Part shown: positions 110 to 15,102 of the stretch, piece after piece
Numbering within the stretch: position 1 is the stretch's first letter
How the letters are laid out: each line of letters starts with the position of its first letter
Source of the DNA: a virus
Length of the DNA stretch: 22,577 nucleotides
Direction: 5' to 3' (one strand)
Virus record (IMG/VR): IMGVR_UViG_3300022910_000021
Span: 1-22,577 of that record
The notes under the pieces: model-generated
Database searches by the model: none
Seen by the model: the letters and a program-made list of their open reading frames with translations, nothing else
Told to the model about the DNA's origin: nothing
Position numbers and translations under genes: made by a program

Positions 110-633
110 GCTACACCGCAGAAGACATTGCCAACCTGATGATTGGCAACCGAATCAGTGTTGACGACATCAGCGAAGCGCTGGACGGAAAGGTCGGCAA
201 GACCTTGAACATCATCGACGAGCCCAAGCCCGACTTCGAAAGCTTCACCGCGAAGGATCTGGAGGAGTACTTCAACCAGGAGAACCTGCTCGAAGATGGC
301 TGGGGTGAGCTGAGCTACAGCCTGAAGAACGAGCAGACCTACGACTACGAGGAGGGCAAGTACGCTCCGCTCAAGCCCTTCGTCCACGGCAAGGTCGAGG
401 TTGCTGACGACGAGGAGACTGGCGGCAAAGGCAGCCAGGAGGACATCTACGTGGTGTTCTCGGTGGAGGATGTTCACGGGAACGCGAGCGATACCGTGCC
501 GCCTCGCAAGCGGTACTTCATGAAGACCGGCTACTACCTGAGCTACGACGGTTCGAACTGGGACGGGGACTTCATCGAAGTCTTCCCGAAGCAGAAGGAG
601 ATCACGGTCTGGGTCACGAAGAAGTTCGCATGA
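106..633 (+). CDS. Hypothetical acidic phage protein, 175 aa
   Basis: Starts at GTG 106 with a well-placed GGAGG at 93-97 and overlaps the preceding stop by 4 bases. The product is acidic and soluble, with no membrane segment or signal peptide. Residues 1-30 look helical (MSYTAEDIANLMIGN...). Residues 95-175 alternate short charged and aromatic stretches, consistent with a small beta domain (YFMKTGYYLSYDGSNWDGDF near 140-160). No catalytic motif or metal site is visible. It is the largest gene of the left plus-strand cluster and heads the run of micro-genes. I do not recognise the family; real coding is well supported by the ribosome site and overlaps at both ends. Confidence 0.85.
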   Translation: MSYTAEDIANLMIGNRISVDDISEALDGKVGKTLNIIDEPKPDFESFTAKDLEEYFNQENLLEDGWGELSYSLKNEQTYDYEEGKYAPLKPFVHGKVEVADDEETGGKGSQEDIYVVFSVEDVHGNASDTVPPRKRYFMKTGYYLSYDGSNWDGDFIEVFPKQKEITVWVTKKFA

Positions 634-755
634 CGCCGATGAAAATTGACGGAGGTTGGCAGTGCCCGTCGTGCGGGCATAAGTTCCGTGGCAAGGGCGA
701 CTGCCAGGACCACATCAACACGGTGTGCAAGGGCCAGCCTGACAGGAGCTACTGA
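630..755 (+). CDS. Single zinc-finger micro-protein, 41 aa (C2HC)
   Basis: ATG 630 overlaps the previous stop (631-633), and its TGA (753-755) overlaps the next ATG. The product carries one compact metal site: C12-P-S-C15, then H28 and C33 (CPSCGHKF...DHINTVC), a CX2C-X12-HX4C finger on a basic background. Nothing lies outside the finger except short tails. Single-finger proteins of this size can bind nucleic acid or another protein; the specific role is unknown. The same module recurs in at least four nearby genes. Coding is supported by the conserved Cys/His spacing and the overlaps; the ribosome site is weak. Confidence 0.75.
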   Translation: MTPMKIDGGWQCPSCGHKFRGKGDCQDHINTVCKGQPDRSY

Positions 756-859
756 TGACCTTGGACCCGAACGATCCGGACACGGCGAGATGGTGCGCGC
801 TGATCTTCGTGATCAGCGCCACCCTGTTCATCTGGGGAGCGTACGAGTTGTGGTTGTAG
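755..859 (+). CDS. Tiny predicted single-pass membrane protein, 34 aa
   Basis: ATG 755 overlaps the previous TGA (ATGA-type junction), and AGGAG lies about 7 bases upstream. A polar N-terminus (MTLDPNDPDTARW) precedes one hydrophobic segment (CALIFVISATLFIWGAY), which would place the N-terminus and the few C-terminal residues on opposite sides of the membrane. No family is recognised. Coding is supported by the ribosome site and the junctions on both sides; at this size a chance frame cannot be excluded. Confidence 0.6.
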   Translation: MTLDPNDPDTARWCALIFVISATLFIWGAYELWL

Positions 860-1272
860 AACCGGAGATCACCAAGTTCACCAGGCTGATGCTCAGCCAG
901 GGTTATGCCATGACCGACTTCGGCTGGGCCGCCCCTCCGAAGGAGGCGCTACCTGTGACGGTCACCATGTTCGAGGGCATCCAGCTTCGCAACGTCCACG
1001 ACTGGCGTCAGTGCCAGCCGGAGGATGGTTTTTACAAGCGGACCTGTGTCATCCATCGGCCGACGCCGCATCGAATGCGGCTCTGGCCTTTGACCTGGCG
1101 TGACGATCGTGGTATCTTCGAGAGGCATTGCAAGCACGGGATCGGTCACCCCGATCCCGATCAGATTCCTTATTGGGAATCTGTCGGCAGGTCGACTGAG
1201 GCAATACACGGATGTGATGGCTGCTGTGGGATTCGGAATGAAGGTAAAGAAATGCAGAATGCCGGGGTGTGA
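850..1272 (+). CDS. Hypothetical Cys/His-rich phage protein, 140 aa
   Basis: The open frame extends upstream to 646, but GTG 850 is preferred. It sits just before the previous gene's stop and has GGGGAG about 11 bases upstream; longer versions would cover two well-supported micro-genes. The C-terminal half holds HCKHGIGHPDPDQIPYW (about residues 94-110) and then HGCDGCCG (about 122-129), which look like a metal or redox cluster. From memory, the HGIGHPDPD and HGCDGCC signatures recur together in small proteins of actinobacteriophages, with no function I can name. Its last codons (1238-1272) are overlapped in other frames by the next two genes. Confidence 0.8.
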   Translation: MVVEPEITKFTRLMLSQGYAMTDFGWAAPPKEALPVTVTMFEGIQLRNVHDWRQCQPEDGFYKRTCVIHRPTPHRMRLWPLTWRDDRGIFERHCKHGIGHPDPDQIPYWESVGRSTEAIHGCDGCCGIRNEGKEMQNAGV

Positions 1273-1345
1273 TTTCGAGACGTTCGACTCCAGCATTCTG
1301 TACAACCACTACCGAGACGTTCACGGGAGAACCAGAAATTCCTAA
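1238..1345 (+). CDS. Single C2H2 zinc-finger micro-protein, 35 aa
   Basis: ATG 1238 lies inside the end of the previous gene. The product is almost all finger: C6-X4-C11-X12-H24-X4-H29 (CRMPGCDFETFDSSILYNHY..VH), with Phe and Leu at the positions expected for a C2H2 core, flanked by basic tails (MKVKK, GRTRNS). It differs from its C2HC neighbours in ending in His rather than Cys. The stop is TCC TAA G, and the downstream zinc ribbon is in the +1 frame (see findings). DNA or RNA binding is plausible but inferred. Confidence 0.65.
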   Translation: MKVKKCRMPGCDFETFDSSILYNHYRDVHGRTRNS

Positions 1346-1433
1346 GGAGTCTGACTACAAGTACTGCTGGCTCTGTGGTGGTAAGATGCACTGGGCCAAG
1401 GTCCAGTGTCCGAAGTGCGGAGCTAAGCAATAG
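1269..1433 (+). CDS. Zinc-ribbon micro-protein, 54 aa (start uncertain)
   Basis: The C-terminal part reads YCWLCGGKMHWAKVQCPKCG, two CX2C knuckles 15 residues apart, a clear zinc ribbon ending at TAG 1431-1433. The only ordinary upstream start in frame is GTG 1269, which overlaps the TGA of the 140-aa gene in a GTGA junction. That start forces residues 2-25 or so to be an unremarkable Thr/Ser-rich stretch antiphase to the C2H2 gene. A strong AAGGAG at 1344-1349 has no ATG, GTG or TTG at the right distance. The real N-terminus may come from +1 frameshifting out of the C2H2 gene or from a rare start codon. Confidence 0.45.
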   Translation: MISRRSTPAFCTTTTETFTGEPEIPKESDYKYCWLCGGKMHWAKVQCPKCGAKQ

Positions 1434-1448
1434 CCACCGGAGGATCCA

Positions 1449-1559
1449 ATGGGCAAGCACGCAGTGCACCGCTGCGACATCTGCAAAAACTACGAGACAA
1501 CCAACTGGGGAGCGCTGATGGCCCACCAGGCCATCTGCCGGGGAAGACGGAGGTCGTGA
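1449..1559 (+). CDS. Single zinc-finger micro-protein, 36 aa (C2HC)
   Basis: ATG 1449 has a strong ribosome site, GGAGG at 1439-1443, five bases upstream. The finger is C9-D-I-C12 ... H26-Q-A-I-C30 (CDICKNYETTNWGALMAHQ), followed by an Arg-rich tail RGRRRS. The pattern CX2C-X13-HX3C and the following RG closely parallel the 41- and 34-residue fingers in the same cluster, suggesting common descent. Unlike most neighbours it does not overlap the gene before it. Likely a nucleic-acid or protein-binding micro-protein; the role is not known. Confidence 0.75.
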   Translation: MGKHAVHRCDICKNYETTNWGALMAHQAICRGRRRS

Positions 1560-1560
1560 A

Positions 1561-1653
1561 GTGAAGTGTCCAAACGGCTGCGGTGCCGAACTGAAGACGA
1601 TGGAAGATGCACGAGTCCATCTGACGGACAAGTGCCCGAAGCGGAAGAAGTAA
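1561..1653 (+). CDS. Single zinc-finger micro-protein, 30 aa
   Basis: GTG 1561 has GGAGG at 1549-1553, inside the end of the previous gene and 7 bases from the start. The 30 residues hold C3-P-N-G-C7 and then H20-L-T-D-K-C25 (KCPNGCGAELKTMEDA..H), a finger with one extra residue in each knuckle compared with its neighbours, followed by a Lys/Arg tail. It is one of the shortest genes here, and the finger accounts for nearly all of it. Coding is supported by the ribosome site and metal-ligand spacing. Function unknown. Confidence 0.65.
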   Translation: MKCPNGCGAELKTMEDARVHLTDKCPKRKK

Positions 1654-1657
1654 GGCG

Positions 1658-1801
1658 ATGGGGTTTTTTGACGGACTGGGCGAGGGCAGGGTAAAGTGTT
1701 CTCACTGCCGAAACCTGGTCACCAGAAAAGGCAAGGAAATTCACGACAAGCAATTCAAGAAGCTGGGCTACTGCCCACCACTGGAATGGGAGAAGAAATA
1801 A
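1658..1801 (+). CDS. Small basic protein with CX2C knuckle, 47 aa
   Basis: ATG 1658 begins 4 bases after the previous stop, and the TAA overlaps the next ATG by one base (1801). The sequence begins MGFFDGLGEGRV, then KCSHCRN (C14, C17), a Lys-rich centre and a lone C39 in GYCPPLEW. The knuckle with H30 and C39 could make a CX2C-H-C metal site like the other micro-proteins, with a longer gap. The MGFFDGLG opening resembles short phage proteins that begin with an amphipathic segment. No function can be assigned. Confidence 0.65.
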   Translation: MGFFDGLGEGRVKCSHCRNLVTRKGKEIHDKQFKKLGYCPPLEWEKK

Positions 1802-1896
1802 TGGCCAAAGGCGACAGGCTCGGTGGAGGATGGACTACTCTTGACCCGAAGACGGGCAAGACGGAGCCGCGCAAGCCGGACAAGAAGGGAAAGTAA
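1801..1896 (+). CDS. Small Lys/Gly/Pro-rich protein, 31 aa
   Basis: ATG 1801 shares one base with the preceding stop, has GGGAG a short way upstream, and its TAA shares one base with the next ATG at 1896. The protein is basic and probably unstructured: a Gly-rich turn (RLGGGWTTLDPKTGK) followed by a KPDKKGK tail. No cysteines, no membrane segment and no recognised domain. The A-of-ATG overlaps at both ends argue that it is translated as part of the chain. Confidence 0.55.
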   Translation: MAKGDRLGGGWTTLDPKTGKTEPRKPDKKGK

Positions 1897-2054
1897 TGGG
1901 ACTGCTTGATTTCTTCTTCGGTAATTCGGCTAGGATCGAAGAGCCCACGGCTCGGCCCATGCCGTCGTACTGGTGGGACGGGGACAACGGCCTGCGTGAA
2001 GACGCGACCGACGAAGGCAACACAGACACAAGCTTCCTCGGTCTGTTCAAATGA
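1896..2054 (+). CDS. Small acidic protein, 52 aa
   Basis: ATG 1896 overlaps the previous TAA, and its TGA (2052-2054) overlaps the next ATG (2051). The product opens with a hydrophobic amphipathic stretch (MGLLDFFFGN), followed by an acidic, Pro/Trp-containing middle (PMPSYWWDGDNG) and a hydrophobic end (FLGLFK). The opening resembles that of the 47-aa neighbour (MGFFDGLG), so both may carry a short membrane-associating or protein-binding segment. No family recognised; coding is supported mainly by gene packing. Confidence 0.55.
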   Translation: MGLLDFFFGNSARIEEPTARPMPSYWWDGDNGLREDATDEGNTDTSFLGLFK

Positions 2055-2143
2055 CCTGCTCCTGCGGCGTTGACTTCAGAACGCAGTGGGCATTGGATGC
2101 CCACAAGAAGATCATGCTGAAGCTCTACGGAGAGAAGCGCTGA
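2051..2143 (+). CDS. Micro-protein with reduced zinc-finger-like motif, 30 aa
   Basis: ATG 2051 sits in an ATGA overlap with the previous stop, and TGA 2141-2143 overlaps the next ATG. The sequence MTCSCGVDFRTQWALDAHKK keeps the look of the neighbouring fingers (Cys pair, aromatic, Leu, then His). The Cys pair is CXC rather than CX2C and the fourth ligand is missing. It is either a degenerate member of the finger family or a site needing a partner. The tail is basic. Ribosome site weak, so translation may depend on coupling. Confidence 0.55.
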   Translation: MTCSCGVDFRTQWALDAHKKIMLKLYGEKR

Positions 2144-2247
2144 TGAAGGGTCCGTGGCACACAGTCCAGTGCGCTACCTGCGGCGACAGGTTTACCTTCG
2201 CCGAACTGTCCGATCACATCAAGCAATGTCCTGGGAGGACGAAGTAA
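2143..2247 (+). CDS. Single zinc-finger micro-protein, 34 aa (C2HC)
   Basis: ATG 2143 overlaps the previous stop by one base with GGAGAG upstream, and the TAA overlaps the next ATG (2247). The finger is C10-A-T-C13 ... H25-I-K-Q-C29 (CATCGDRFTFAELSDHIKQC), nearly the same layout as the 41-aa finger at 630-755 (CPSCGHKF ... DHINTVC). The shared C-G-x-x-F and D-H-I elements make the two likely paralogues. Short basic tails flank the finger. A role in binding host or phage nucleic acid or protein is inferred only. Confidence 0.75.
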   Translation: MKGPWHTVQCATCGDRFTFAELSDHIKQCPGRTK

Positions 2248-2662: not shown

Positions 2663-2733
2663 AGGGTGGTAGCTCAATGGTAGAGCTTGGTCCGAGAAGG
2701 ACCAGGATCCGGGTTCGAGCCCCGGCCACCCAC
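2663..2733 (+). tRNA. tRNA-like gene with closed 5-base anticodon loop
   Basis: Acceptor GGTGG-type stem 2663-2669/2726-2732 (only the 1:72 A-A pair fails), TA at 8-9, D stem GCTC/GAGC (2672-2675/2683-2686) with GG in the loop, anticodon stem TGGTC/GACCA (2688-2692/2700-2704), T stem CCGGG/CCCGG and T-loop TTCGAGC (2714-2720). All are well-formed. The anticodon loop 2693-2699 is CGAGAAG: position 33 is G, not the near-universal U, and C32 can pair with G38 to leave a GAGAA pentaloop. Read at 34-36 the anticodon would be AGA, but there is no class II variable arm for Ser. No CCA is encoded. Decoding ability is doubtful. Confidence 0.6.
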
Positions 2734-2779
2734 GGGGAGAGAGGAACGGGGTCAGTACCCGAGCCAGGCGGCTTCGGCC

Positions 2780-2871
2780 ATGCGGCGCTTGGTGTAATGG
2801 TTAGCATACTCTCCCGTGGTTCAGGTTAGTCCGTCCCGCTTGCGACGGACCAGGGCAGCAACCTGGCGGCG
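2780..2871 (+). ncRNA. Hairpin-rich RNA with tRNA 5'-half-like start
   Basis: GGTGTAATGGTTAGCAT at 2791-2807 looks like a tRNA D arm, and the sequence before it could be an acceptor strand. No matching anticodon 3' strand or TTCRA T-loop follows. Instead there is a perfect 7-bp hairpin (GTCCGTC 2829-2835 / GACGGAC 2844-2850, 8-base loop), then CCAGG/CCTGG (2850-2854/2862-2866) with a 7-base loop GCAGCAA at T-arm spacing. CAGGTT (2822-2827) can also pair with AACCTG (2860-2865) around the hairpin. It may be a rearranged class II tRNA, a broken tRNA or an unrelated small RNA. Confidence 0.3.
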
Positions 2872-2894
2872 TGGTAGCCGTCGAATAGCTGGTA

Positions 2895-2970
2895 GCTTCG
2901 TTAGCTCAGTGGAGAGAGCGCTGGCGGTCTAAACCCTCAGAGGCGCCAGGTTCGATTCCTGGACGGAGCA
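2895..2970 (+). tRNA. tRNA-like gene with enlarged 10-base anticodon loop
   Basis: Acceptor GCTTCGT 2895-2901 pairs with ACGGAGC 2963-2969 (one G-U), TA at 8-9, D stem GCTC/GAGC (2904-2907/2916-2919) with GG in the loop, T stem CCAGG/CCTGG around TTCGATT (2951-2957), discriminator A2970. Between them the anticodon arm is three bases too long: CTGGC 2921-2925 and CTCAG 2936-2940 frame a 10-base segment GGTCTAAACC, which can itself close as GGT/ACC with a CTAA tetraloop. If a 7-base loop GTCTAAA forms, the anticodon would read CTA (amber), but the supporting stem would then be poor. No CCA encoded. Confidence 0.6.
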
Positions 2971-3039
2971 CGGAAGCCCAGATCGAGTGTGATGAACTCG
3001 GGAGTAAGGGGTTTCTGGCGAAGGCTCATCACCTTCGCC

Positions 3040-3114
3040 GCTACTGTAGCTCAGCCCGGTAGAGCGCCCGACGTGGAGTCGGGAGGATCGTGGGTTCAAA
3101 TCCCACCAGTAGCA
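3040..3114 (+). tRNA. tRNA-like gene with closed 5-base anticodon loop (TGG if read)
   Basis: The best-formed tRNA here: acceptor GCTACTG 3040-3046/CAGTAGC 3107-3113 (7/7), TA, D stem GCTC/GAGC with CCGG in the loop, anticodon stem CCCGA/TCGGG (3067-3071/3079-3083), T stem GTGGG/CCCAC with TTCAAAT loop (3095-3101), discriminator A3114, no CCA. The anticodon loop 3072-3078 is CGTGGAG. Positions 34-36 read TGG (Pro), but position 33 is G instead of U, and C32-G38 can pair, giving a GTGGA pentaloop. Everything except the loop looks functional. The plus-strand frame through it translates as a typical spurious tRNA peptide. Confidence 0.7.
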
Positions 3115-3121
3115 CTGCGGT

Positions 3122-3322: not shown

Positions 3323-3358
3323 AAAGCCCCGGCCTCCCATTAGGGAGGCCGGGGCTTT
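3323..3358. terminator. Strong symmetric (bidirectional) intrinsic terminator
   Basis: A perfect 16-bp inverted repeat, AAAGCCCCGGCCTCCC (3323-3338) and its complement (3343-3358), around an ATTA loop. On the plus strand the stem ends in TTT after the RNA cluster; on the minus strand the run of five A at 3321-3325 gives a U-tract. It lies where the plus-strand micro-gene/RNA cluster meets the end of the long minus-strand late operon, so it can stop transcription from both sides. The stretch 3246-3322 holds only this and a weak AGGAG/CTCCT hairpin. Confidence 0.92.
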
Positions 3359-3373
3359 GGGTAGTGCTAGGTA

Positions 3374-8370: not shown

Positions 8371-8705
8371 TCTTTGTCCTTTAAACTAGACCGTGCATGG
8401 TCCTGGATGTGGGTGTCGACCTTGTCCTCGATCCGGCGAGTGTCCTTGCGGACTTCGCAGATCAATTCCTTGATCTCGGCAAGCGAATCCTTGGTGCCCT
8501 TGGCGAATCCGTTGGAGATGGGTTTAACACCTTCAGCGGCAATGGCAGCAGTTTGCTTGGCGTCTTCCAGCTTTGCCTTGATACCTTTGTAGCCCAGCCA
8601 TGCGGTGAACCAGAATCCGCCTTGCACCAGGAGCAGAGTCGCCCACCGGTACAAGACGTCAGACTGGGCACCGCCGACTAACCAATCAATCGGGTCGGCA
8701 ATCAC
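8367..8705 (-). CDS. Membrane protein of the lysis cassette, 112 aa
   Basis: GTG 8705 overlaps the endolysin stop (GTGA), and its own stop overlaps the holin start (ATGA). An N-terminal amphipathic or hydrophobic region, about residues 15-40 (VLYRWATLLLVQGGFWFTAWLGY), is followed by a long charged helix (KAKLEDAKQTAAIAAEG... LICEVRKDTRRIEDKVDTHI) that can form a coiled coil. This layout resembles the DUF2746-type actinobacteriophage proteins found beside endolysin and holin; I am not certain of the match. It may be a second holin, an antiholin or an accessory lysis protein. Confidence 0.75.
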   Translation of the reverse strand: MIADPIDWLVGGAQSDVLYRWATLLLVQGGFWFTAWLGYKGIKAKLEDAKQTAAIAAEGVKPISNGFAKGTKDSLAEIKELICEVRKDTRRIEDKVDTHIQDHARSSLKDKE

Positions 8706-9520
8706 GCCTTCGGCTTAGCAGCCTTCGCCACTGCAATCCCATTCGCGGAGAGAGCAGTGCTGATAGCGTCCAGCTTCGCATTGACCAGCTTGAAGTCCTC
8801 ATCGACCTCACGCCGCAGGCGAGCAACGCTCGGAGGGAACCGAACGATCTCGTCGTACGACTTCTTGTCGCCAGGCTCAAGGTCCGGGTCCGCGTACGCG
8901 CGGACGTCAGCCTCGGTCAGTTCGTGCTTGTCAGAAAAACTCACGTCGTCATCATCCTCTGTGGTGGCTTCGTCCGGGAGCACTGCCCTCCGGACTCGAG
9001 TGCGGAACGAATCCATGCTGAAGCTAGGATCCGACTTGCGCCCGGGAGGGGCGCAGGTTTCCTTATGTCCTCGGACATCGGCCACTGCTAGACCGAACTC
9101 TTCAATCAGCGCCTTGCACAGCTTGGCGTACGAATCCATCTGCTTCTCGGGCCAGTCGCCCGGAGTTCCGGGAACGCCCACAGCCTCAGCCTCAATGCCG
9201 ATTGCGTGGATCTTCTCGTAGTCCACGGAGCGAGACTCGCCAGCGTGGTTGGCCGAGCCAGCCGCGAAGACGTAGATGGTTCCGCTACGGCCAATGCCGT
9301 ACTGTGCCAGCGGACCAGGAAGGTCCGCACCACGGCCATTCAGCACCGTGTTGAAGCTGGGGTAGTCGCCCTTCGCACCGCCGTTAGCGGTGTGATGGCA
9401 GGTAATGGTTCGCACGTCCGACATCAGCTGCGGGCGGGTGCGGGTGCGCCAGCCAGGAACCTCGACAACCGGGTAACCGGTTCGCCGGGCGACCCTGGCT
9501 AGGCCTGTGTACATGGTCAT
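8702..9520 (-). CDS. Endolysin: N-acetylmuramoyl-L-alanine amidase (Amidase_2), 272 aa
   Basis: The zinc amidase fold is evident: TITCHHTANGG (His42/43), NHAGESRS near 91, and GHKETCAPPGRKSDPSF with His152, Lys162 and Asp164. These match the zinc ligands (His, His, Asp) and the catalytic Lys of amidase type 2. The enzyme cuts the amide bond between muramic acid and the stem peptide. Residues 190-272 form an acidic linker and a charged helix, possibly a wall-binding or oligomerisation tail. The frame is open to 9568, but ATG 9520 is preferred: it overlaps the upstream stop as ATGA, and MTMYTGLARVAR begins the domain. It has no signal peptide, so holin release is expected. Confidence 0.93.
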   Translation of the reverse strand: MTMYTGLARVARRTGYPVVEVPGWRTRTRPQLMSDVRTITCHHTANGGAKGDYPSFNTVLNGRGADLPGPLAQYGIGRSGTIYVFAAGSANHAGESRSVDYEKIHAIGIEAEAVGVPGTPGDWPEKQMDSYAKLCKALIEEFGLAVADVRGHKETCAPPGRKSDPSFSMDSFRTRVRRAVLPDEATTEDDDDVSFSDKHELTEADVRAYADPDLEPGDKKSYDEIVRFPPSVARLRREVDEDFKLVNAKLDAISTALSANGIAVAKAAKPKA

Positions 9521-10974
9521 GTGGATTCCTCTATGTGTTCGTCTGGATCGGGAGCTTCCGTTACCCACTGGCCGTAGCCAGCGGCTCGAAGCCGGAAGGC
9601 TTCGGCCTTGGTGACCCGGTAGGTCCGACCGCCAATGTAGGCAGCATCAGCTGCCGTCACCTGCTCTGCCGACGGCTCGTCGATCTGCTGATACGACTCT
9701 CCGTACCGAAGGATCGAGATGCCTCGGTCCAGGTACATCCGCGACCAGAGGCCGTGACGTCCAGCCCAGCGCTCGCGGATTGTCGGCGTGGTGAAGAAGT
9801 AGATCAGGCCAGAGTCAGCGATGACTGTGGCATCAAAGGCCTGGCCGAGAGCCTCAGCCAGAACAGCTGAAGCATCAGTTGCTGCCAGCACGACCGAGAC
9901 GGTCGCGTCGAACGCTTCACCCAGGGCGGGTGCCACCGAAGGCGGCGACGTCCCGTTGATCAGAACCAGGGCATTGAATGCCTGGCCCGTAGCAGCGGCC
10001 AGCTGAGCGCTGACCGTGACCATGCTGGTTCCAGCAATGGTCGCGTCGTAAGCGGAGCCGGTAGCTCCAGCGACCAGAGGTCCAGGGCCAACCATCGGTA
10101 CGGCGTCAAACGCCTCACCGACCGCTACGAGCGCAGAAACGAGCTGGTCCACTGAATACGACGTACCCGCGATGAACGGCGCTGAGCCGGTCGCCTGAGC
10201 CGTCGTAGGCTCAACGGTGATGCTGATCGAGCTAGGCGCTCCAGCAGGAGCGGCGTCAGGCGTGGTGCCTACTGCCTCAGCCGTAGCAGGAAATGCCGAC
10301 AGGTTCGGGCTGGTCGGCCCGAGGCCAGAGCCAGCCTGGTCGGAATGTCGCCAGTCGTCAGCACGGTACAGCGAGAAGTTGGAGATCGCCGAAGACGCGG
10401 GCTTGCCGAAGCGGAAGATCTGGACAGTGCCGGTCGTGGTGCCAGTAGTTACCGTCGTCGACAGGAGAGACGTCAGCGAATCCGCCAAGAAGACCTGGGC
10501 GGCGAGGTTGGTGGCTCCTGTCGAACCGTAGTTCGACCCTTGCCATTCGGCTCGATACCAGTTCCCTGGGGTTAAGACCCCAGCGGTAAACGTCGAGGTA
10601 ATCGTTCCAGCTGCCACCCGAATCTGACCGGTGGTCGAGATGAACAAGCCACCAGAAGAACCGCCCGCTGCGTATCTGATGTCCACCAGCTGATGCGTGA
10701 CGTCCGGGTGAGCTGGGTAGTAGAAGTAGATCGAGTCCTGGAACGCTGACGTTCCAGCTCCCTGGTCGAATGCTATGAACTGAGTCGTTGCGTTCGGCTG
10801 AGTGAACAGGATGGACATGCCACCCCGGTAGACGTTCACATTCGAGAATGTGACCGCACCACCAGAGCCATTGACGACCGTGGAGAAAGCATCGCCGGAG
10901 AAACCACCAGAGTTGGCGGTCGTCACGGTAACGCCGTTGGTACCACCTTCGGCGTTATTGGAGAGGATGGTCAT
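9517..10974 (-). CDS. Composite fibre/structural protein: lectin-like domain, repeats, conserved C-terminus, 485 aa
   Basis: Residues 1-205 are beta-rich with the look of a LamG/concanavalin-like jelly roll (FQDSIYFYYPAHPD, NWYRAEWQGSNYG, FRFGKPASSAISNFSLYR). Residues 225-395 contain about seven imperfect repeats of 19-27 residues with core A-x-G-x-A-[FY]-[DN]-A (GEAFDA, GSAYDA, GQAFNA, GEAFDA, GQAFDA). Residues 395-485 (TTPTIRERWAGRHGLWSRMY, RGISILRYGE, YIGGRTYRVTKAEA, LRAAGYGQW) match a C-terminal block I recall from actinobacteriophage tail proteins. Carbohydrate binding at the virion surface is likely. Start ATG 10974 overlaps the previous stop. Confidence 0.75.
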   Translation of the reverse strand: MTILSNNAEGGTNGVTVTTANSGGFSGDAFSTVVNGSGGAVTFSNVNVYRGGMSILFTQPNATTQFIAFDQGAGTSAFQDSIYFYYPAHPDVTHQLVDIRYAAGGSSGGLFISTTGQIRVAAGTITSTFTAGVLTPGNWYRAEWQGSNYGSTGATNLAAQVFLADSLTSLLSTTVTTGTTTGTVQIFRFGKPASSAISNFSLYRADDWRHSDQAGSGLGPTSPNLSAFPATAEAVGTTPDAAPAGAPSSISITVEPTTAQATGSAPFIAGTSYSVDQLVSALVAVGEAFDAVPMVGPGPLVAGATGSAYDATIAGTSMVTVSAQLAAATGQAFNALVLINGTSPPSVAPALGEAFDATVSVVLAATDASAVLAEALGQAFDATVIADSGLIYFFTTPTIRERWAGRHGLWSRMYLDRGISILRYGESYQQIDEPSAEQVTAADAAYIGGRTYRVTKAEAFRLRAAGYGQWVTEAPDPDEHIEEST

Positions 10975-12959: not shown

Positions 12960-13937
12960 TTACGGCGTACCTGTCTGCAACGTCGGCACGGTGGAGCCGG
13001 AAAGGATCTGGACCAGGGACTCGTTGCGGTACAGAGCCCAGCCCAGGATGCCGTACCAGCCAACGGTGCGGAACCGCTGGAGCTTGTCGGTCACGGGACC
13101 AAGAACCGAGTTCGGCTCCTCGGTGACGACCTCGGCCAGGGCTTCACGGCCCAGGATGAAGGTCCGGTAGACCTTCGCCGAAGACGCGCCGTCAAGCGCG
13201 GTACGGGTACGGGTGTTCGTGACGAACCGCACACCCTCGAACTCGCCGAACTCACCAGTCCAGATCTTGGACTGGTCGGTGCCGTACTCGTTCGGGACAC
13301 GCCACGAGCCGGAGCCCGTCTCTTCCCGCAGGTCGTGCAGGACGTGCGGGTGGATACCACCCGCATAGAACCCGCCACCGAACTCCGGGACCTTGTTCGC
13401 GTTCAGCCAGGTGTTGGCCTTGCGAACGTCGCTCGCGCGGATGGTGTCGCCAGCCAGGATCTGGTTGGTCGCGGAACGGCTCTGAGCCCGGAGGATCTGA
13501 GTACCGGTGACCAGGTAGTCCTGGACCAGCTCGTCGAGCACGTCCGCCTGGTGCGCACCAACGGTGCGAGCGGCGACCATGTCGACGTCGGCGAAGCTGA
13601 AGTACCGCAGCTTCTTGGTGCTGGTGATCGCAGCACCGTACTCGTTGACGGTCAGGTCGACCGTCAGGGTCGGGGGCAGCTTCTGGCTGTCCACGTCCAT
13701 TTCCTCGTTCAGCGGCGTCTTGGCAGCGGTGACAGACGCGCTGTCGAAGAACTGCTGCTTCTGCATCTGAATGGTCTGCCCAGGCATCACCAGGTGACCC
13801 GGGGACTTGTCGGCAGCCCAAGCGCGGTACATCGGGTTTTCGCGGTAGACCATGTCGATAGCAAGGTCGTACGCGGTCTTGATGGTATTGTCACCAATAC
13901 CAGGCGTGGTAAGAATTGAGGTGTACTGGTTAGCCAC
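12960..13937 (-). CDS. Major capsid protein, N4-gp56 family, 325 aa
   Basis: Length and sequence match an HK97-fold major capsid protein of the N4-gp56 type: N-terminal arm (MANQYTSILTTPGIGDNT), E-loop region with PGQTIQMQKQQFF and NEEMDVDSQKL, a spine helix ADVLDELVQDYLVTGTQI, and P-domain/A-loop strands ending YGILGWALYRNESLVQI. It forms the icosahedral shell. The scaffold gene lies immediately upstream, as is standard. Start GTG 13937 with only a weak AGG-type ribosome site, unexpected for so abundant a protein; translation may be helped by coupling or mRNA structure. Confidence 0.92.
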   Translation of the reverse strand: MANQYTSILTTPGIGDNTIKTAYDLAIDMVYRENPMYRAWAADKSPGHLVMPGQTIQMQKQQFFDSASVTAAKTPLNEEMDVDSQKLPPTLTVDLTVNEYGAAITSTKKLRYFSFADVDMVAARTVGAHQADVLDELVQDYLVTGTQILRAQSRSATNQILAGDTIRASDVRKANTWLNANKVPEFGGGFYAGGIHPHVLHDLREETGSGSWRVPNEYGTDQSKIWTGEFGEFEGVRFVTNTRTRTALDGASSAKVYRTFILGREALAEVVTEEPNSVLGPVTDKLQRFRTVGWYGILGWALYRNESLVQILSGSTVPTLQTGTP

Positions 13938-14636: not shown

Positions 14637-14707
14637 TGAGCGTGGCAGGAATCGAACCTGCACCCTCCCCTTATTGTGGGGAGTTCTGCCTTAGATGTGC
14701 ACGCACC
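14637..14707 (-). tRNA. tRNA-like gene with C33 anticodon loop (AAT if read)
   Basis: On the minus strand: acceptor GTGCGTG (14706-14700) with CACGCTC (14644-14638), one T-T mismatch; T stem GCAGG/CCTGC with loop TTCGATT (14656-14650); discriminator A at 14637; anticodon stem TCCCC/GGGGA (14682-14678/14670-14666). The anticodon loop 14677-14671 is ACAATAA, so position 33 is C rather than U, and 34-36 would be AAT. The D arm is short (TCT/AGA, 5-base loop AAGGC). It lies between the HNH gene and the scaffold gene and is co-oriented with the late operon. Aminoacylation and decoding are uncertain. Confidence 0.55.
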
Positions 14708-14712
14708 ATTGT

Positions 14713-14741
14713 TTGCCTTCTCGTCCCAGGCGTGATAGGGT
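14713..14741 (+). promoter_or_regulatory. Possible promoter for the HNH gene, near-leaderless
   Basis: TTGCCT at 14713-14718 and TAGGGT at 14736-14741 are separated by exactly 17 bases, resembling actinobacterial -35 and TANNNT -10 elements. Transcription would begin about 7 bases later, at or next to ATG 14749, which would make the mRNA almost leaderless, a known mode in actinobacteria. This agrees with the lack of a good ribosome site before the gene. The gene points against the operon around it, so it needs its own promoter. Confidence 0.35.
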
Positions 14742-14748
14742 TCGACTC

Positions 14749-15102
14749 ATGCCATACAAGAACAAGGACGATCTGAGGAAGTTTCAGCGAGAGTGGAAGG
14801 CGGCACGCCGTCAGGCGTGGATTGACAGCCAAGGCGCGAAGTGTATTGACTGCAACTCGACCGAGAGGCTTGAGGTGGATCATGTTGACCCAAGTCAGAA
14901 ACTTATGCGGCCCAGTCTTATTTGGTCGCTGGCCGAAGCCAATCCGAAAAGGATCGCCGAACTGGCCAAATGCGTCTTGCGCTGCCATGATTGCCACCAA
15001 GTAAAAACCAAGCGGCAGCGGGCCGGGCGGGAGTCGAACTCGCCTGTCACCATGCGGCCCTGGCTTCTCAAAGAAGCCGAAGTACTAGTACTACAACAAT
15101 AA
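14749..15102 (+). CDS. HNH endonuclease family protein, 117 aa
   Basis: ATG 14749 begins a basic helix (MPYKNKDDLRKFQREWKAAR), then Cys32-x2-Cys35 (KCIDCNS), LEVDHVDP with the catalytic His45, and CVLRCHDCHQVKT with Cys79, Cys82 and His83. This is the zinc-braced beta-beta-alpha HNH fold of free-standing phage nucleases. It is the only plus-strand protein gene in the long minus-strand region, as expected for a selfish homing nuclease, though HNH proteins can also aid DNA packaging. Residues 92-104 (GRESNSPVTMRP) are the antisense of a truncated tRNA, so the C-terminal tail may be acquired. The gene's end overlaps a minus-strand micro-gene. Confidence 0.85.
   Translation: MPYKNKDDLRKFQREWKAARRQAWIDSQGAKCIDCNSTERLEVDHVDPSQKLMRPSLIWSLAEANPKRIAELAKCVLRCHDCHQVKTKRQRAGRESNSPVTMRPWLLKEAEVLVLQQ
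15020..15060 (-). ncRNA. Truncated tRNA minihelix (acceptor plus T arm only)
   Basis: On the minus strand GGGCCG (15060-15055) pairs with CGGCCC (15025-15020), and GCGAG (15043-15039) with CCCGC (15031-15027; one A-C mismatch) around TTCGACT, a proper T-loop. Only 10 bases link the acceptor and T arm, so D and anticodon arms are absent. It lies antisense to the HNH 3' end and just after the 20-residue membrane ORF. It could be a tRNA relic or a minihelix substrate for RNase P or CCA-adding enzyme. Confidence 0.4.

Follow-up and report, generated by a model that had tools for sequence, protein, structure and literature searches.

What does a virus do with a row of genes each of which codes for little more than one zinc finger, and are such genes real? 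The question is raised by positions 630–2247 of the IMG/VR record IMGVR_UViG_3300022910_000021, a linear virus record of 22,577 bases that was analysed at its full length (the window, whose coordinates are used throughout) and whose uncultured virus has Streptomyces-like bacteria as its probable host. The genes of this row are tightly packed, they measure 30–47 amino acids (aa), and most of them encode one eukaryote-like zinc finger each. The explanation that we favor, and that taken as a whole stands about an even chance of being right, is that the genes of the row genuinely code for microproteins and are translated together, and that the individual fingers serve as small adaptors or inhibitors with a separate partner for each.

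As regards the reality of the genes, five four-ligand single fingers of the C2HC/C2H2 type (630, 1238, 1449, 1561, and 2143) are coded within 630–2247, alongside a CX2C-H-C protein (1658), a CXC-X12-H protein with three ligands (2051), and a zinc ribbon of the C4 type. If a strict finger is defined as C-X2-4-C-X11-13-H-X3-5-[HC] in an open reading frame (ORF) of at most 60 aa, five are counted on the + strand of 600–2300, whereas 5,000 dinucleotide shuffles average 0.012 and never exceed 1, none reaching five; there are none on the opposite strand of 600–2300 and none in the remaining window. Adjoining genes overlap or abut (at 630/633, 755, 1559/1561, 1801, 1896, 2051/2054, 2143, and 2247), and their third codon positions, with a G+C content of 0.65–0.91 versus 0.83 in the capsid gene, are G+C-rich like those of the genome's other genes. 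The fingers do not form one polyfinger chain, being separate ORFs in different frames, with their own starts and stops; the ORFs beginning with GTG at 1214, 1269, and 2086 were set aside as merely extended versions of internal true frames. Principally, the row can be taken as real and conserved because a close relative, the contig L011, holds its own reshuffled row. The genes, which include non-zinc microproteins (755, 1801, 1896, 2247, and 2357) and a Cys/His-rich gene of 140 aa (850–1272), are as follows, described from the sequence where no other basis is given:

106–633, + strand: 175-aa gene of phrog_8206/18295 (unknown function), translationally coupled to finger 630 by an ATGA overlap (630–633)
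630–755, + strand: single finger CX2C-X12-H-X4-C, 41 aa (strict pattern)
755–859, + strand: 34-aa predicted one-pass membrane microprotein
850–1272, + strand: 140-aa Cys/His-rich HGC(D/C)GCC protein, widespread in actinophages; its homologue adjoins the L011 array
1238–1345, + strand: single C2H2 finger CX4C-X12-H-X4-H, 35 aa (strict pattern)
1338–1433, + strand: zinc-ribbon microprotein CX2C..CX2C, about 31 aa, start codon uncertain; homologue at L011 10926–11033
1449–1559, + strand: single finger CX2C-X13-H-X3-C, 36 aa, with a basic tail (strict pattern)
1561–1653, + strand: single finger CX3C-X12-H-X4-C, 30 aa, GTG start; best match L011 10375–10491 (z 6.6)
1658–1801, + strand: long-spaced CX2C-X11-H-X9-C microprotein, 47 aa
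1801–1896, + strand: 31-aa basic microprotein without a metal motif
1896–2054, + strand: 52-aa IEEP..R..PSYWW microprotein, homologous to L011 9673–9831
2051–2143, + strand: 30-aa CXC-X12-H microprotein with three ligands, an odd pattern kept in L011 9542–9649
2143–2247, + strand: single finger CX2C-X11-H-X3-C, 34 aa, with a beta-beta-alpha model (mean predicted local distance difference test score, pLDDT, 80); best match L011 10488–10595
2247–2354, + strand: 35-aa microprotein without a metal motif
2357–2506, + strand: 49-aa charged microprotein, probably helical

All the ORFs named in the original prediction, made from the letters of the window and a list of its ORFs, are present. It had counted six genes with one metal module each, which is correct for the five four-ligand fingers, although the protein at 2051 has only three obvious ligands; the CX2C protein that it saw at 1658 is there, as CX2C-X11-H-X9-C over 47 aa; and its zinc ribbon at 1269 is indeed a ribbon, but probably with another start, as no homologue extends upstream of about codon 20. 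The likely start would be the ATT at 1338, behind GGGAGA, and in L011 the ribbon is a separate gene with a GTG start.

Relatives were gathered with the 639-aa tail protein of the window as the query (80 loci), and in L011 this protein is 71% identical to that of the window and the convergent layout is the same. On the - strand of L011 a SLOG-family (YspA) protein is followed by the homologue of 850–1272 and the ribbon; five single fingers and then charged microproteins come next, and the series ends with the 1896 homologue and the CXC-H protein. In the window the order is the 630 finger, 755, 850, the 1238 finger, the ribbon, 1449, 1561, 1658, 1801, 1896, 2051, and 2143, so that a common frame (850, ribbon, fingers, 1896, and CXC-H) is kept and the number and order of the fingers change. 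The L011 fingers comprise four strict hits and a C-X2-C...H..C variant at 10713–10904. By inspection, every zinc ligand is retained in the likely counterpart pairs, and therefore the Cys/His positions, whose lack of conservation in homologues the original prediction had named as evidence against itself, do recur. The best pair is 2143 with L011 10488–10595 (50% identity, z 6.8), and the closest pair inside the window is 630 with 2143 (z 5.1, with Cys/His fixed), a moderate similarity in which the motif that had been proposed for the two is shared, in the corrected form CX2CGX2FX6-7DHIX2-3C. For ten aligned fingers, the similarity beyond the ligands reaches z 16.7 versus shuffles, a figure overstated owing to the alignment itself and, in part, to the shared fold; together with the best pairs (z 5–7) and a copy number that varies between relatives, it favors the duplication and drift that had been supposed.

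With respect to the fold, AlphaFold2, provided with an alignment of twelve fingers, models the one at 2143 as a beta hairpin (strands 7–9 and 16–18) followed by a helix (19–28), with a core pLDDT of 88–89, which amounts to a beta-beta-alpha finger. Searched against the PDB with Foldseek, the model comes closest to single fingers of the C2H2/C2HC type (TRAF4, RAD18 UBZ, WRNIP1 UBZ, Sgf11, GTSF1, and U11-48K); many of these entries are titled as protein- or RNA-binding, and none has an E-value under 0.1, as would be expected because the query has 34 residues. A profile of eleven phage fingers finds 1mey, a designed consensus C2H2 finger, with a whole-chain E of 5e-14 summed over three fingers and an i-E of 2.6e-4 for the best single one, and the spacing C-X2-4-C-X12(+/-1)-H-X3-5-[HC] is that of five window fingers. 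No array finger reaches the curated cut-offs of Pfam (25–27), the best scores being 15–24 bits, so standard annotation would miss them, and in general the shortness of zinc-finger microproteins and their scores below the family cut-offs make them difficult to annotate. The Ros/MucR prokaryotic zinc finger was rejected as an assignment, its domain having about 58 residues versus 30–41 aa in total here, with no match to a Ros/MucR model. For most genes of the row the predicted product is a single beta-beta-alpha finger extended by a short tail that is often basic, and these fingers would bind zinc.

The position of the row is the next element. In its left 2.6 kb the window holds the last part of a + strand operon, whose terminal genes are three transfer RNA (tRNA) genes; the right part carries the late genes on the - strand (major capsid protein, 12960–13937; tail proteins; endolysin, 8702–9568). 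Between both parts lie:

2663–3115, + strand: Ser, Leu, and Pro tRNA genes, the terminal genes of the operon
about 3324–3360, strandless: strong hairpin between the convergent operons, facing the late operon (fold z -5.7), probably a bidirectional terminator

The row therefore sits promoter-distal, at the 3′ end of its operon, and is not among the first genes made. The capsid protein is about 40% identical to those of the Beephvirinae, which are Streptomyces phages, and the tail protein is 28% identical to that of Immanuel3; by its capsid, tail genes, and convergent gene order the window would be a Beephvirinae-like phage, which is not a formal taxonomic placement. In Immanuel3, a cultured phage, a likewise convergent operon faces the late genes and carries primase, DnaB-like helicase, RusA, and dCMP deaminase genes.

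Cultured Beephvirinae have one or two short CX2C-Xn-HX3C microproteins at or near the end of the corresponding operon (Manuel 47, RosePharie 50 and 52, Stella 54, FlowerPower 51, and Immanuel3 28200–28355), their loops ranging from X6 to X11 and being mostly shorter than that of the classical finger. That of Immanuel3 (locus L010, - strand) is a 52-aa C2HC microprotein, unannotated there, whereas Percastrophe, Olicious, and others carry an identical gene with an annotation; in Abafar none was seen among the four terminal genes of the operon. These microproteins have position, size, and motif in common with the window fingers, and given this shared position the window and L011 look like expansions of a positionally conserved slot. 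A candidate finger at L012 13340–13516 was discarded as an out-of-frame chance motif.

As regards distribution, clusters of at least three strict fingers occur, among the loci fetched here, in the window and in L011 (L091 and L171 being the same locus); L125 also has one, but of a different motif. Profile A6 across 95 virus records recovers five fingers in L011 only, the other hits being single and weak or partial, and the strict DNA pattern for the 2143 finger, the loop length of which fits the window copy only, is in no other viral contig. In INPHARED, tblastn with the joined micro-ORFs and with 630 gave no match, and with 2143 only hits of E ≥ 1, that in Coruscant not being an annotated protein of that phage. 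Profile A9 on 296 Streptomyces genomes has S. composti (G096) as the sole match among the matches listed, a contig where a single similar finger adjoins a relative of the tail gene, and profile A10 matches tectiviruses only, in whose Streptomyces members gp1 holds a similar single finger. A tandem phage array was not found in the literature on phage and prokaryotic single zinc fingers, a weak negative since subscription journals were thinly covered.

If we accept these observations, the finger set would result from copies being duplicated, diverging, and being lost at one fixed place, namely the 3′ end of an operon that carries replication genes in relatives, directly before the convergent terminator. 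Each finger, acting by itself, would be a small adaptor or inhibitor that contacts one host or phage macromolecule through its helix face and basic tail, a protein in the first place and an RNA in the second. The array would supply a set of diversified small modulators, produced before the switch to the late genes or at about that time. Protein and RNA are possible ligands of a lone finger with a basic tail, and DNA is a less frequent one; the structural neighbours of the model lean to protein or RNA binding, and the profile to C2H2 fingers generally. Several points weigh against this proposal: (i) the preference for protein over nucleic acid relies on structural resemblance with insignificant E-values; (ii) the basic tails among the fingers (RGRRRS, PKRKK, and PGRTK) fit DNA or RNA binding too; (iii) positional equivalence with the cultured phages is not sequence homology; (iv) and finally, L011 is the only array-bearing relative found.

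The second of these points leads to the alternative that ranks next, although we consider it unlikely: the fingers would be small regulators binding DNA or RNA by one finger and a basic tail, for example in the early-to-late switch or in translation. The net charge of +2 to +5 on all eight metal-module proteins, the Arg/Lys tails, and the profile similarity to DNA-binding C2H2 fingers speak in its favor; however, the helix faces differ strongly between copies, a single classical finger seldom gives specific DNA binding, and operator-like repeats have not come to light, although no search was aimed at them.

The original prediction saw in such sets of tiny early genes a common place for host-takeover or anti-defence factors; the row would then be a kit in which each finger blocks another host protein or immune system. 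These are indeed small, diversified, high-turnover accessory genes of an actinophage, with copy number and content varying between relatives, but they lie promoter-distal at the 3′ operon end beside tRNAs and a strong terminator, PADLOC (which covers defence, not counter-defence) gives no defence-related family match, and the idea is a special case of the adaptor/inhibitor explanation; on its own we would call it improbable.

A single complex, in effect a polyfinger divided among several chains, with the fingers, the ribbon, and the 140-aa Cys/His protein as its subunits, would agree with the translational coupling and with the ribbon, 1896-type, CXC-H, and 140-aa genes staying beside the array in both phages, but seems very doubtful, in that finger number and order differ between the window and L011, and the 140-aa family, present in at least 421 viral stretches, is mostly found without fingers. 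This family, with 18 invariant columns in 40 sequences, has no name in Pfam, PHROG or NCBIfam, and a fold search with the model of the protein (pLDDT 71) gave no credible match. Finally, the proteins might buffer metal or be neutral by-products, in either case lacking a specific partner. They are indeed very small and Cys/His-rich, but this reading can hardly be credited when each has one structured site rather than metallothionein-like clusters and exact ligand spacing is kept at about 30–50% identity.

Returning to the adaptor/inhibitor modules, the known systems resemble them in part. Classical C2H2/C2HC fingers (Pfam zf-C2H2, zf-C2H2_4, and zf-C2HC_2) are alike in ligand spacing and predicted fold, and their consensus finger is matched by the array profile; in contrast, they are in tandem in one chain, while here there is one finger per 30–41-aa protein, the last ligand is usually Cys, and the scores are below the Pfam gathering scores. 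UBZ4 (RAD18/WRNIP1) and TRAF-type fingers, the top structural neighbours, share the CX2C-X11-H-X3-C layout, a structural resemblance only, with no significant E-value and with zf_UBZ below cut-off for one L011 finger; canonical ubiquitin is, to our knowledge, lacking in bacteria. The Beephvirinae microproteins (Manuel 47, RosePharie 50/52, and Immanuel3) share the slot, the CX2C-Xn-HX3C motif, and, by capsid and tail proteins, the viral lineage, but are in one or two copies with X6–X11 loops. The tectivirus gp1 (Forthebois, WheeHeim, and RickRoss) likewise has a single C2HC finger, behind which comes a basic tail of the form (Q/R)GRR/K, but it is in one copy, has an extra N-terminal helix-like segment, belongs to an unrelated virus order, and is annotated as hypothetical, zinc not being mentioned in the text of the genome paper (PMC6950372). 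For Haloferax volcanii, two papers describe stand-alone single-domain zinc-finger micro-proteins of less than 70 aa with individual functions (PMC6562870, PMC11241148); these are cellular, carry two C(P)XCG motifs (four Cys) instead of a beta-beta-alpha C2HC finger, and, in the text consulted, are not presented as an operon array.

The conservation in L011 makes the entire microprotein set credible together. It is conceivable, although on balance improbable, that this phage lineage keeps a diversifying locus in which duplicated classical-type fingers have been re-specialised as free-standing microproteins, each for a different host protein; if so, the locus would be a polyfinger repertoire taken apart into independent effectors of 30–40 aa. 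Since finger-like microproteins of cultured Streptomyces phages occupy the same slot (Manuel 47 and RosePharie 50/52), the question of what a solitary finger targets is accessible in the laboratory.

Some minor observations concern the relatives and the surrounding genes. In L125 (208–1162, - strand, of a 116.6-kb viral contig), six paralogous-looking Cys/His microproteins of 35–55 aa with the motif CP.CGG.C..GH..H.C..H.W form an independent tandem set, and L008 (12768–13054, + strand), another relative, has two overlapping, similar Cys-rich microproteins with HEGICxC(E/D)CxEC. Close to the late-operon junction, L012 (14523–15815, - strand) and L013 (12869–13903, - strand) carry integrase genes of tyrosine-recombinase-like type, which suggests temperate members, and so the slot is variable. 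A SLOG-family YspA-like protein, not present in the window, is near the junction in L011 (11397–11861), L012 (13353–13961), and L182 (15029–15610), in all three on the - strand, Pfam scoring having been done on the L011 copy only. Lastly, an HNH endonuclease gene (window 14695–15102, + strand; phrog_4234, E 1e-24) is inserted within the - strand late operon.

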